A DNA stretch of 64,000 bases from Desulfurellaceae bacterium bin18. Its GTDB lineage: Bacteria > Desulfobacterota > Binatia > Bin18. The stretch covers positions 1 through 64,000 of the forward strand of contig MPMI01000018.1 in assembly GCA_002238415.1 (NCBI GenBank), written 5' to 3'. The position numbers and the translations under genes are program-made. A model generated the notes under the pieces. That model was not told where the DNA came from. It saw nothing but the letters and a program-made list of their open reading frames with translations, and searched no databases. How positions within the stretch are numbered: position 1 is the first letter of the stretch; each line of letters begins with the position of its first letter. Positions 2,929 to 12,460 of this stretch are shown piece by piece.

Positions 2929-5106
2929 CTAAGCTGCCTGTACCTTGCGGGGCGCGGTCAGCGCCTCCACCACATTATGCATCAAACGCAGGCCCAGGTC
3001 TTCCTGAAGGGTGAGGATGGACTCCGGATGAAATTGCACTGCGGCGACGGGCAGGTCGGTATGTTCAACCGCCATAACGACCCCGTCATTGCTCTCGGCG
3101 GTAATGCGGAGTACGCCGGGAAGCGCGTCGCGTATAGCAAAAAGAGAATGATAACGCGCCGCCCGAAACTCTCTAGGCAGATTGTCATATAGCTGCCCAG
3201 CACGAACATGGATACGCGACGGTTTGCCGTGTATCGGGTAGGGAAGGGTTGCGAGCCTGCCCCCAAAATACTCGACAATGCCCTGGAGGCCCAGACATAC
3301 GCCAAAGACGGGCAGATTTCGCTTCAGCACCGCGTCGAGCGTCTTCGAGAGGTTGAAATCTTTTGGTTCCCCCGGACCAGGGGACAGGACAACCAAGTCA
3401 GGTTGGTGGGCCTCAAACTCACGTTCGGGAAACCCGGCGCGCAGGGTGAGGACTTCGGCTCCGGTTTGACGCAGATAATTGGCCAGGGTGTGGACAAAGG
3501 AATCTTGATGATCGATCAGCAGGATTTTCTTATTCCGACCAACCGGAGCCAGGGGCATACCCTTTTCCGGGGTCAAGCCACGCGGACGGCGGATGGCGTC
3601 GAGAAAGGCCGAGGCTTTGATGTGGGTTTCTTCCTCTTCCGCTTGCGGGTCGGAGTCGTACAGCAGGGTTGCGCCGGTCCGAACTTGGGCCACGCCGTCT
3701 TTCAGGCGAATGGTCCGCAGCGTCAGGCCGGTATTCAGGCTACCGTTAAACCCAATCAGACCGACCGCGCCGCCGTACCAGGCGCGGGGCGATTTTTCGT
3801 GGTCTTCAATGAACTGCATAGCCCAGGCCTTGGGAGCGCCGGTGACGGTCACGGCCCAGGTATGGGCCAAAAAGGCGTCGAGTGCGTCAAACTCGTCTCT
3901 GAGATAACCCTCCACATGATCGACGGTGTGGATCAGGCGGGAGTACACTTCGATCTGACGCCGCCCGATCACGCGGACGCTGCCCGGTTTGCAAATGCGA
4001 GACTTGTCATTGCGGTCCACGTCGGTGCACATGGTCAGCTCGGACTCGTCTTTCTTTGAGGTCAGCAGTTCAAGAATCCGGTCGGCGTCGGTGATCGCGT
4101 CCTGCCCGCGGGCAATGGTGCCCGAGATGGGACAGGTCTCGACACGCCTGCCTTCGACCCGGACGTACATCTCGGGCGAGGCCCCTACCAAGTACTCGTC
4201 CTGTCCGAGGTTAATGAGAAAGCCGTAGGGAGACGGGTTGCGTTCCCGGAGTCGCCGGAACAGTTCCGCCGGAGAGGCCGTGCAGCCCTCAGAAAATGTT
4301 TGTCCCGGCACTACCTCAAACAGGTCGCCTTTTTTGAAGGCTGCTTTGGCTACGGCGACTCCTGCGGCATACTCCCCCGGCTCGTGGTCGCAGTCCTGCT
4401 TCACATGGTGGTTGCCCTGATACGCCTGGCTTTCGCCGGTGCGCGGGATGCCATGCGTCGAGTGTCCGTCTACTTCAAATTCATAGCTGCGGCGCATCGC
4501 CCGCTCGCGTCGATGGTCAACCACGATCAGTTCGTCCGGGAGATAGAGCACCAGGTCGCGCTGGTCGGCCGGGCGCTCCAAACGCAGTCGCAGCGGCTCA
4601 AACTGAAAGGCGAGGTCGTAGCCAAACGCACCATACAGACCCAGATGAGGCTCCGCGGTGCTATAAAAGAGCTGCACCAGCACGCGCAGTACGGAAAAAA
4701 GAGAGGGTTGCTGACTGCGTTGCTCCTCTGGGAAGCGTTCACGCGTTGGCGTGACGGAGCCAATCAGGTCCGGCCCCTGGACCTCCAACGCGGCAACTGC
4801 GGAAAGATTCTCAAGCACTGCGGTAATGGCCGGTAAGAGCAGGGCGCCGCGTTCGTTCAGGGCTGACACCCAGAAATGTAAGCCGCGCCCCCCGACCGCC
4901 AGGGGTGGGTTGATAAAGCCCATATCCCAGCGGGTGTAGCGCCCTGGATATTCATAGCTTGAGGCAAACAGGGCGCCGCGCTGACAGTCGAGCGCGTCCA
5001 GAACGGGTTCGATGGTGTCTGCCGCCGGCAGGTCGTCAATCACCCGATGAACGGTGATTCCCCCACGGGTATGGTAATGGTCTGTGTGTTGGAGCAGAGA
5101 TGTCAT
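2929..5106 (-). CDS. trpE(G): Fused anthranilate synthase, components I and II (TrpE-TrpG)
   Basis: A single 725-residue chain joins a chorismate-binding TrpE domain (roughly 1-520) to a class I glutamine amidotransferase TrpG domain (roughly 535-725). The TrpE half carries CPISGTIARGQD and the conserved catalytic stretch near SELTMCTDVDRND. The TrpG half has the nucleophile Cys in FGVCLGLQGI and the His in AVQFHPES. It makes anthranilate from chorismate and glutamine, the first committed step to tryptophan. Fused TrpEG enzymes are known from rhizobia and relatives. I start it at the ATG at 5106, preceded by a GAGG box. Upstream in-frame codons run back into the attenuator and are unlikely to be translated. 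The leader (trpL, two terminator hairpins) supports a role in Trp biosynthesis rather than phenazine or ADIC synthesis. No other trp genes are adjacent. Confidence 0.92.
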   Translation of the reverse strand: MTSLLQHTDHYHTRGGITVHRVIDDLPAADTIEPVLDALDCQRGALFASSYEYPGRYTRWDMGFINPPLAVGGRGLHFWVSALNERGALLLPAITAVLENLSAVAALEVQGPDLIGSVTPTRERFPEEQRSQQPSLFSVLRVLVQLFYSTAEPHLGLYGAFGYDLAFQFEPLRLRLERPADQRDLVLYLPDELIVVDHRRERAMRRSYEFEVDGHSTHGIPRTGESQAYQGNHHVKQDCDHEPGEYAAGVAVAKAAFKKGDLFEVVPGQTFSEGCTASPAELFRRLRERNPSPYGFLINLGQDEYLVGASPEMYVRVEGRRVETCPISGTIARGQDAITDADRILELLTSKKDESELTMCTDVDRNDKSRICKPGSVRVIGRRQIEVYSRLIHTVDHVEGYLRDEFDALDAFLAHTWAVTVTGAPKAWAMQFIEDHEKSPRAWYGGAVGLIGFNGSLNTGLTLRTIRLKDGVAQVRTGATLLYDSDPQAEEEETHIKASAFLDAIRRPRGLTPEKGMPLAPVGRNKKILLIDHQDSFVHTLANYLRQTGAEVLTLRAGFPEREFEAHQPDLVVLSPGPGEPKDFNLSKTLDAVLKRNLPVFGVCLGLQGIVEYFGGRLATLPYPIHGKPSRIHVRAGQLYDNLPREFRAARYHSLFAIRDALPGVLRITAESNDGVVMAVEHTDLPVAAVQFHPESILTLQEDLGLRLMHNVVEALTAPRKVQAA

Positions 5107-9764: not shown

Positions 9765-11018
9765 TTAGGGAGTGCCGCTGGTTTCCTGCTGTTTCTGGAG
9801 GGTGACCAAGGTGGCGAGTTTGTTGACGGGAGGCAGACCTCGGATGAGCCGCCCGTTCACCACTAGGGTAGGGGTGGCTTTGATCTCAAGACGCAGGGCC
9901 TCGTCAATATCGTTCTTGACCAGCGCCTCGGTGTGCCCATCGTCCATGCACGCACTAAACTGCTCGAAATCCAGTCTGGCAGTTCTGGCATGGGCGTCAA
10001 AGTCGGCCCGCTTGAATTTGGCCTGATCCGCAAACAGCAGGTCGGCATACTCCCAGAATTTCCCCTGCTCAGCGGCACACTCGGCCGCCATCGACGCCGC
10101 ACAAGCGCCCGGATGCACCTGACCCTGCATACCGGTATTGCACTGCTGGTCAAGCGGATAGTGCCGGAACACGATACGGACATCGTCCGGGTTGGCATGC
10201 TGAAACTTCAGCAGGGTGTCCCGGGCATTGGCGCACTGCGGGCAGCGGAAATCAACGAACTCATGAATGGTGAGCGCTGCGTCCGCGGGCCCCTCGACGT
10301 GCCGTTCCGACCCACGCAGCACGACAGCCGGCTGGTCGTAGTAATAACGCACGAAACTCATGTCCATCTCTGCTGGAGGAGGAGCGAGATATTCCTGAAG
10401 TGGGGTCACGTGGGCGGCGTCCCCGGTCTGGGTCAGCCCGATGCCCAGCAGCACGATAGAAAAACCAAGCGCGGCGTAAGCCAGCCGAGGCAGGGTAATC
10501 GTATGATCCGCCCGTCCCTGCACAAGGGCGCTCACGAAGAGGCCTAGGTTCACCAGATACAGACCGGTACACAGGGGGCACACCGCCCCTATCGTGAAGA
10601 ATGAGACTGCCGCCATATACAGCGAGAAGACAAACATCCAGCCACACAGCAGAACGGTTAGCCCAGGCGCTGCCAGGAACGTGCTGGCGAGGAGGATCGC
10701 GTAGCTGCCGGCGGCGAGTACGGCAACAGGAATCCCAAAAAGAGTGGCATAGGCACTGCTCAGGACCAGGCTGCAATTGACCGTGGTCCCGCTGCCGCAA
10801 AAAGCCGATTCAATACTGCCGCTCGTCCCCGCCTGATAGTGGAGGACCGAGAGGTAGACCCCGAGGATGAGGCCGAGCGCTCCAAGGATACGGATGGCGA
10901 GCGGCGGCCAACTAGGAGCGTGACGCTGCGCGTGACGCGCTGTCTGCACGGCCGGATCGTGTGTGGCTGCCTTACGGCGGGACGCTTTTGCTTTCTTTGC
11001 TGACATGGGCTGAAGCAT
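9765..11018 (-). CDS. VKOR-DsbA fusion: disulfide-generating membrane protein with periplasmic thioredoxin domain
   Basis: A 417-residue fusion. The N-terminal half (about 40-195) is a vitamin K epoxide reductase homologue with several membrane helices, loop cysteines Cys74 and Cys82, and the quinone-side pair Cys147-Pro-Leu-Cys150. The C-terminal half (about 235-415) is a DsbA-like thioredoxin domain with Cys259-Pro-Gln-Cys262 in FVDFRCPQCAN and the cis-Pro stretch ATPTLVVNGR. VKOR takes electrons from the thioredoxin part and passes them to quinone, so the protein would oxidise exported thiols without DsbB. The start at 11018 is chosen because AAGGGG lies 7 bases upstream; two other ATG/TTG-type starts are close by. 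The neighbouring selenocysteine DsbA-like gene suggests a shared oxidative-folding job. Confidence 0.9.
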   Translation of the reverse strand: MLQPMSAKKAKASRRKAATHDPAVQTARHAQRHAPSWPPLAIRILGALGLILGVYLSVLHYQAGTSGSIESAFCGSGTTVNCSLVLSSAYATLFGIPVAVLAAGSYAILLASTFLAAPGLTVLLCGWMFVFSLYMAAVSFFTIGAVCPLCTGLYLVNLGLFVSALVQGRADHTITLPRLAYAALGFSIVLLGIGLTQTGDAAHVTPLQEYLAPPPAEMDMSFVRYYYDQPAVVLRGSERHVEGPADAALTIHEFVDFRCPQCANARDTLLKFQHANPDDVRIVFRHYPLDQQCNTGMQGQVHPGACAASMAAECAAEQGKFWEYADLLFADQAKFKRADFDAHARTARLDFEQFSACMDDGHTEALVKNDIDEALRLEIKATPTLVVNGRLIRGLPPVNKLATLVTLQKQQETSGTP

Positions 11019-11129
11019 TACCATACCCCTTTCCGAATCGCCAAGAGGGGGAGGAGAGACGGGCTGCCTTGCGCGACGCAGTGAAAGCGGGTAGGGGCGA
11101 ACAGACCGCTGTGTAGAAAGGGAACGGGT

Positions 11130-11378
11130 ATGGAGAGTGATGATCTTGGCTGGATTCCCCGACCTGTTCGAGCCAAGCTCGATCAGGTCGGAGTCAAACT
11201 CCACTTAAAAGAATGGCAGGCCTTCCCCCTGGAGGACCGCCAGGCCTTGTGCGCTTTGCCCTGCCAGACCTCGGTTGAAAAAAAGGCGTTCCAGGAACGC
11301 CTCGATACCTTAGCTCTACGCCACTGTGGAGCACTGCCGCGGCGGCTGCCTCCAGAGAGACCGGGTGGGGCAGCCTAG
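11130..11378 (+). CDS. Nitrate reductase-associated family protein (PF09655-like), short form
   Basis: An 82-residue protein whose segment IPRPVRAKLDQVGVKLHLKEW and following LEDRQALCALPC resemble the core of the family called nitrate reductase-associated, which usually runs to about 150 residues. Here only the first half is present before the stop, so it is a short member or a truncated one. Function is unknown in the family; the name comes from gene neighbourhood in cyanobacteria. No nitrate reductase is in this window. It is divergent from the VKOR gene. Confidence 0.6.
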   Translation: MESDDLGWIPRPVRAKLDQVGVKLHLKEWQAFPLEDRQALCALPCQTSVEKKAFQERLDTLALRHCGALPRRLPPERPGGAA

Positions 11379-11408: not shown

Positions 11409-12434
11409 CTACTGCGCCGCCAGCATTTCCTCGATCAATTCGGCAAACGCCGAGTAGGGTTGCGAACCGGACAGAAAACGTCCGTTCACAAAAAAGGCCG
11501 GTGTGCCGCTCACCCCGAGTTGAGTGCCGAGCGCCAGGTCCTTGCTGACTGCTGCGGTATAGGCGTTATTGTCCAGGCAGGCCGCAAACTGCGCCGGGTC
11601 CAGTTTGAGGTCGGCGGCGTATTGTTTCAGTTCATCGGGCTGTAAGGCTTTAATATTGGCAAACAGGATATCGTGGTACTCCCAGTATTTGCCCTGATCT
11701 CCGGCACAGCGCGCAGCCTCAGCCGCTTTATACGCCTGGGGATGAAGCCGGGTTAACGGAAAATCCCTGAATACAAATTTAACTTTATCCTTGTAGTTTT
11801 CCTGAACTTGAGAGAGTGCAGACTGCACTCGGGCACAATACGGTCATTGATAGTCGGAGAACTCAACCAGCGTAATGGGCGCGTCCTGTGGTCCTTTTGC
11901 TGGTGCTCCGGCGGTCGGGACATCAACAATCGGTGGTGCCAGCGTAAAGTCGATCGTGGTCGCTTTGCGCAGTTCGGCAGCAAATGCCTGTTGGCGCTGT
12001 TGCTGCTTGCGGCCCTGAAGGGATTGTTTGAGCTGCGCCTGCACCTCTTCCAGTTTTCTCTCTCCAAACCGGGCTTTGTTCTTAGTATAGTAATCCTCTA
12101 CCTCTGCATCGCTCACCGGTTCTGTTTTATCGGTCACTTCCTGCTGGCGGAGTTGTTGGCGGGTAATGCCCCGCTTCTTTGCCTCCTGCTCTTGCAGATG
12201 CGCGTCGATGATCGCATCGACCGCTTTCTTTTTGAGCGAGTAGATTTGGTTGTGCAAACGGAGCATCTGGCCTTTAATCTGGTTTTCAATCTCCGCCTCG
12301 GTGATGCTTCTTTCGCCGACCGTGGCCAGCACCGCGTTGGTGGCATCGGCCCTGAGTGCGCCCGGAGCCAGCACCACTCCTGCTAGGAGGAAGGCACTGA
12401 CAAGGCGGAGGCTCTTCTGCCCGTGTGGTTTCAT
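11409..12434 (-). CDS. Selenocysteine-containing DsbA-like thioredoxin-fold protein (Sec-Pro-Tyr-Cys), with SurA-like N-domain
   Basis: Two open stretches in one frame are separated only by a TGA at 11844-11846. Upstream of it the protein ends LVEFSDYQ and downstream it continues PYCARVQSAL, so the TGA sits exactly where DsbA/BdbD proteins have the first Cys of CPYC. Read as Sec197-Pro-Tyr-Cys200, the 341-residue product is complete: a signal peptide (about 1-30), a charged helical SurA-like region (about 35-165), and a DsbA domain with the cis-Pro loop SGTPAFFVNG. A perfect 7-bp hairpin 13 bases after the TGA looks like a bacterial SECIS element. The ATG at 12434 has an AAGGAG box. It probably reduces or isomerises disulfides in the periplasm. 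The alternative, a nonsense mutation, is made unlikely by the exact position and the hairpin. Confidence 0.85.
11814..11830 (-). promoter_or_regulatory. SECIS-like hairpin of the DsbA-like selenoprotein
   Basis: On the RNA strand GAGUGCA GUC UGCACUC forms a perfect 7-bp stem with a GUC loop, starting 13 bases after the UGA. The apical part GCAGUCUGC closely resembles the SelB-binding tip GCAGGUCUGC of the E. coli fdhF element, which is at a similar distance from its UGA. Confidence 0.8.
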
Positions 12435-12460
12435 TATTGCTCCTTCTCTGAATACTGCTA

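Follow-up and report, generated by a model that had tools for sequence, protein, structure and literature searches.

Selenocysteine predicted in the active site of an exported SurA_N-DsbA protein of Binatia

Sec-containing "DsbA-like" and "DsbG-like" families with a UxxC motif were described in 2005-2008 (PMC1088965, PMC1794560, PMC2398784). The DsbA-like ones have been seen in the Sargasso Sea and GOS surveys (PMC1088965, PMC2398784); DsbG-like is a recognised bacterial selenoprotein family (PMC1794560, PMC2398784, PMC13188914), for which a 2026 review gives NF041057 as the model (PMC13188914). The protein analysed here is encoded in the window, i.e. the whole stretch of 64,000 nucleotides under study, and resembles the DsbG-like selenoproteins (COG1651/Thioredoxin_4; NF041057 "Rcas_1661 family thioredoxin-like (seleno)lipoprotein") in its thioredoxin subfamily, in a predicted Sec as first residue of UxxC and in predicted export. 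It scores 122.7 bits with NF041057 against a curated cut-off of 190, and is therefore related to that family without being a member of it. Unlike the NF041057 lipoproteins, it has no lipoprotein Cys in its signal peptide and carries a SurA-like N-domain of about 130 residues. With the DsbA-like selenoproteins (COG2761/PF01323, FrnE group) it shares UxxC and the DsbA fold, but it belongs to another subfamily.

Two further systems are close. VKOR-DsbA fusions and the VKOR/Rv2969c pair of M. tuberculosis likewise place quinone-linked machinery beside a DsbA-type protein (PMC3792642), whereas here the adjacent DsbA has the predicted Sec and, in three related genera, so does the fusion itself. ScsC and other proteins in which a DsbA fold follows an N-terminal oligomerisation domain have the same catalytic fold and a helical N-terminal extension, but the N-domain of the window protein is of SurA/PrsA type and not a ScsC trimer stalk. 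The sequence-only reading had held that secreted Sec-DsbA proteins with a SurA-like N-domain are at most rarely described. This is too sweeping for the active site, since UxxC Sec proteins of DsbA/DsbG-like type have been catalogued since 2005-2008, but it stands for the architecture: no report of SurA_N-DsbA(Sec) or of Binatota selenoproteins, and no description of Sec in bacterial VKOR proteins, was found in the literature searched. The architecture, its occurrence in Binatota and a Sec VKOR-DsbA thus appear undescribed in that literature.

Other candidate Sec proteins of DsbA fold were seen in these genomes. One (locus L023; genome G000, contig C65, about 4328-4528) has UPWC, its U being an in-frame TGA, with GGCCGC-gga-GCGGCU as hairpin; it looks closer to the FrnE group (COG2761/PF01323), and similar weak TGA matches occur in most genomes of the family. 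Another (L063; G015, contig C29, 36592-37272) is DsbA-like, short and lone, with UPFC; it is Rcas_1661-like (107 bits) and has a hairpin CACGUC-cguga-GACGUG. In the class, families f3, f7 and f9 likewise have lone DsbA-like matches containing one TGA.

Reading frame, recoded codon and Sec machinery

12434..11409, minus strand: SurA_N-DsbA gene, predicted to contain Sec; 341 codons, a single in-frame TGA
11846-11844, minus strand: TGA (predicted Sec), codon 197, first residue of U-P-Y-C; TGA in 11 orthologues of four genera
12440..12445, minus strand: Shine-Dalgarno-like AAGGAG just 5' of the ATG; motif present in most congeners/orthologues

The minus-strand frame 12434..11409 is translated as MKPHGQKSLRLV...EFSDYQUPYCARVQ...GVSGTPAFFVNG... 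It is open for 196 codons 5' and 144 codons 3' of the TGA at codon 197, with no other stop. Thus the two observations first made on the letters alone, i.e. a TGA in place of the first Cys codon of CPYC and a frame complete on either side, are borne out at 11846-11844 on the minus strand. Within the genus the dN/dS of the gene is 0.127 before the TGA and 0.080 after it, which indicates that the codons after it are translated and under purifying selection. One base change from TGC to TGA, whether a sequencing error or the mark of a decaying pseudogene, would look alike in one genome, and the sources are assembled metagenomes. But the same TGA is found in seven congeneric genomes, assembled separately, and in three further genera. 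Together with the low dN/dS after a TGA that is the only stop, this refutes such an origin in practice, and we give it a negligible probability.

The 64,000-nt window was searched for further in-frame TGA codons that are Cys-like and have frames on both sides, and no other convincing one was found. A conceptual frame of 82 aa (11130-11378, plus strand) lies opposite to and between the two Dsb genes.

The source genome is a 5.24-Mb Candidatus Binatia MAG, 96% complete. The check for selA, selB, selC and selD proposed from the sequence found all four: selA (602.8 bits, cut-off 268), which adjoins tRNA-Sec on contig C49; selB (382 bits, cut-off 242), with its winged-helix domains; tRNA-Sec (selC) with anticodon TCA (UCA in RNA); and selD (310 bits, cut-off 125), within a 755-aa frame. 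The N-terminal part of this frame resembles an FAD/NADH dehydrogenase and looks like an Ndh-SelD fusion, whose SelD (G000:C78:56985-57902; L018 262-2529) has Cys, not Sec, in its active site. For comparison we used the 16 genomes, nearly all of them MAGs, of the same family (f1; genera g1 to g7, g1 being that of the window). All 16 have selA and 15 have selB above cut-off, the one exception being an 84%-complete assembly. Second SelB-like matches of about 190 bits, some with internal TAA/TAG, occur in genomes that also have selB above cut-off (G005:C1:3499173-3500333, G006:C1:855557-856714, G015:C16:12693-13799, G011:C262:4341-5204).

The frame would also be open if UGA were read as some other amino acid, through a reassigned code or a leaky stop. 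However, UGA remains a normal stop, ending 16 of the 47 long frames in the window; the aligned non-Sec homologues have Cys at this position; and the full Sec machinery accompanies a SECIS. On these grounds reading as another amino acid is rejected as extremely improbable.

The SECIS hairpin and the Sec and Cys forms among relatives

11814..11830, minus strand: SECIS hairpin GAGUGCA-GUC-UGCACUC, 13 nt after the TGA, perfect 7-bp stem
11830-11824, minus strand: 5' arm of the hairpin
11823-11821, minus strand: loop GUC
11820-11814, minus strand: 3' arm of the hairpin

A perfect hairpin starting 13 bases past the TGA had been noticed from the sequence, and it is present at 11830-11814. The published bSECIS model asks for a loop of 3-9 nt, a stem of 4-16 bp and an MFE of at most -7.5, with a G in the first two loop positions and 16-37 nt from UGA to loop (PMC13188914). 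The hairpin fits throughout, with a 3-nt loop starting with G, a 7-bp stem and 20 nt from UGA to loop. Its fold energy is -8.4 kcal/mol alone and -9.8 for 40 nt. This is ordinary relative to shuffled sequences (z = -1.4; 21 of 200 shuffles equally good), so the case for a SECIS rests on the comparison among orthologues. Scanning 8 kb of surrounding sequence with Rfam gave no real match and no SECIS family.

At the homologous codon, TGA is found in 11 genes (7/7 congeners of g1, two from g3, and one each from g6 and g7) and TGC/TGT in four genes of three genera (two in g2, one each in g4 and g5); the gene was not found in one g6 genome among the 16 searched. The comparison with homologues that the sequence-only reading had called for thus returned TGA or TGC/TGT at the equivalent of codon 197. 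The hairpin is present in 11/11 Sec orthologues, from four genera, versus 0/4 Cys orthologues, and the stem cells are paired in 100% of cases in the former versus 46% in the latter. The seven-pair stems, all at the same place, are GAGUGCA/UGCACUC in g1, GGGUGCA/UGCACUC in g6 and GAGUUCA/UGAACUC in g3 and g7, with loops GUC (g1), GGA (g6), GUC (g3) and GGG (g7). They differ by one pair changed on both sides from G-C to U-A and by one A-U to G-U change; the G-C to U-A covariation is a single pair, common to two related genera. A stem of at least 7 bp arises in 0.4% of random synonymous recodings, an approximate value as codon usage was taken from the orthologues themselves. Four-fold sites in the stem are invariant among congeners (6/6, versus 63% overall), which is suggestive only. 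As to the loop, its tip had been likened to fdhF and does resemble that of E. coli fdhF, but is not conserved, being GGA and GGG in sister genera.

Could the UGA be a true stop, ending a 196-residue SurA-like protein followed or not by a separately started DsbA piece (a 139-aa GTG frame)? Gene finders would call two ORFs, and stand-alone SurA-type domains exist. But the TGC/TGT orthologues are one continuous protein, and the SECIS stem is kept only alongside TGA. Moreover the thioredoxin fold begins ahead of the TGA and has its first active-site residue at it, so a split there would leave neither piece functional as a DsbA. We consider termination at this codon very unlikely. By sequence comparison, then, the SurA_N-DsbA gene with its TGA is a genuine selenoprotein gene whose recoding is conserved in relatives.

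Beyond the family, the class matches listed include about 90 full-length orthologues, all without a stop, even though 123 of the 148 genomes in the class have a selA scoring above cut-off. This marks the Sec form as derived in the family, i.e. as a family-level conversion from Cys to Sec, judging from these alignments. In the protein tree, computed with the active-site residue masked, the family forms one clade (98/98). At least three Sec/Cys changes are needed; a single gain with two losses is as parsimonious as three gains. In g5 the Cys gene has one arm from each version of the stem (GGGUGCA/UGAACUC) and thus resembles a SECIS decayed after reversion from Sec to Cys; SECIS remnants of such a kind have been described (PMC1794560). 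This decayed stem favours losses, and reversions from Sec to Cys within the family are probable. In the SelA+SelB tree g2 takes another position, so that any exact history of Sec and Cys is tentative.

Protein domains and the VKOR-DsbA neighbour

12348..12434, minus strand: signal peptide, about residues 1-29; ALRA/DATN boundary read from sequence
11955..12338, minus strand: SurA/PrsA-type N-domain, about residues 33-160; profile matches, no parvulin domain
11421..11903, minus strand: DsbA/Thioredoxin_4 domain, residues 178-338; PF13462 E 1.9e-32, PF01323 E 5.7e-25
11499..11504, minus strand: Thr311-Pro312, expected cis-Pro loop, invariant in 26 homologues
11706..11708, minus strand: Cys243, invariant in homologues
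11577..11579, minus strand: Cys286, invariant in homologues
9765..11111, minus strand: VKOR-DsbA fusion, CPQC (Cys form), start uncertain, downstream of the SurA_N-DsbA gene

The AlphaFold model has a mean pLDDT of 89, with 273 residues at or above 90 and the DsbA domain mostly above 95; the signal peptide segment is of low confidence and helix-free. A SurA-like N-domain, proposed earlier from the sequence, finds support in profiles: SurA_N_3 matches 22 of 26 homologues (E up to 0.01), the window protein alone falling below Pfam's cut-off, and the N-domain matches the SurA-like PPIase HP_0175 (E 6e-8). In fold searches PrsA and SurA rank first with weak matches (E >= 0.1). No catalytic parvulin (Rotamase) domain was found in the protein, the sole trace being a sub-cut-off match to a Rotamase_2 fragment, and a PHROG match was uninformative. 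The catalytic domain has Pfam matches above cut-off, the CxxC position and the cis-Pro loop of the DsbA/Thioredoxin_4 class, and its Foldseek matches are DsbA, BdbD and ScsC. The Sec/Cys pair of the CxxC motif is invariant among the 26 homologues aligned, the non-Sec ones having Cys at the Sec position. Cys243 and Cys286 may form a second, perhaps structural, disulfide; one of such a kind exists in M. tuberculosis DsbA (PMC3792642).

The SurA_N-DsbA and VKOR-DsbA genes lie within a few kilobases of each other in g1, g2, g3, g5, g6 and g7, separated in most by a luciferase-like oxidoreductase gene and sometimes by an SDR gene. From what is known of such families, the fusion is a likely quinone-linked partner of the SurA_N-DsbA protein. 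It is of Cys form in g1, g2, g4 and g5. A UGA occupies its first active-site codon (U-P-Q/A-C) in both g6 genomes, in g7 and in g3 (L134/L135 in G014 and G013, L145 in G015, L147 in G010), each time with a SECIS-like hairpin after it (5-7 bp; loop CGUGA or CGUGC). In g4 the Cys fusion (G011, L136) still has GCGCC-CGUGA-GGUGC at the hairpin site, a possible SECIS relic. Among the class matches listed, no VKOR-DsbA gene outside the family has a TGA. It is conceivable that the family put Sec into an envelope disulfide relay, namely into the SurA-DsbA carrier and, in g3, g6 and g7, also into the DsbA domain of VKOR-DsbA, and that both genes gained and lost Sec as one functional unit; we hold this tentatively, at well under an even chance.

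VKOR-DsbA lies about 4-8 kb from selA in about 19 genomes, spread over six other Binatia families. The three such regions that were read (L155, L157 and L158) have the order selA, selB, PpiC-type PPIase, VKOR-DsbA. This linkage, absent from the window's genome, ties the Sec machinery to envelope folding genes.

Proposed mechanism and direction of exchange

In the mechanism that we propose, SelB would bring Sec-tRNA-Sec to UGA codon 197, guided by the hairpin 13 nt downstream, and the signal peptide would export the full 341-residue protein. By analogy with its families, the product would act as a periplasmic DsbA-fold thiol(selenol)-disulfide exchanger in which Sec197 attacks, most likely on substrate disulfides or oxidised cysteines, and Cys200 resolves; alternatively the Se-S form (Sec197-Cys200) would take electrons from substrate thiols. 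The SurA/PrsA-type helical N-domain, judging by homology, probably binds or presents unfolded clients or mediates self-association. The process served would most likely be envelope protein folding, alongside VKOR-DsbA, which can hand electrons to quinone. What Sec may bring, as in related families, is faster exchange and an active site recoverable after over-oxidation. That the product is a Sec-containing exported thiol-disulfide exchanger is predicted with high confidence, an estimate that bears on the exchange and not on its direction.

For the direction, two roles that both keep Sec have to be weighed. The protein could be a DsbA-type oxidase, re-oxidised by the adjacent VKOR-DsbA. The conserved neighbour argues for oxidative folding, and oxidases, namely BdbD and corynebacterial DsbA/TsdA, are among the solved structures closest to it; but VKOR-DsbA has a DsbA domain of its own and may need no second. 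Also against an oxidase is CPYC combined with Thr before the cis-Pro, which we take to be a DsbG/DsbC-like combination. We put this role somewhat short of an even chance. To the other role, a DsbG/DsbC/ScsC-type isomerase or sulfenic-acid reductase reduced via a CcdA-TlpA-like membrane protein, we give about an even chance. It accords with CPYC and Thr-Pro, with an N-terminal domain as in ScsC/DsbG architectures and with ScsC structures among the fold matches. The genome also encodes a CcdA-type protein whose thioredoxin domain has WCGPC, so a reducing route may exist. However, no genetic link to the CcdA-like gene is seen, and the related M. tuberculosis DsbA shows that oxidases are possible (PMC3792642). 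The initial preference for a reductant or isomerase over a plain oxidase agrees with CPYC and Thr-cisPro but goes beyond the evidence, the neighbour being a VKOR-DsbA oxidase fusion. We would lean only slightly to an isomerase or proofreading role (DsbG/ScsC-like) over a plain oxidase.

With these results Binatota joins the lineages for which a Sec-containing enzyme of envelope folding is confidently predicted. Closely related genera that differ in having Sec or Cys at one active-site position, and do so in two adjacent partner genes, amount to a natural experiment; genera with either form all keep selA, and nearly all have selB above cut-off. Such matched Sec/Cys pairs make the contribution of Sec to disulfide exchange, and its gain and loss, directly testable.
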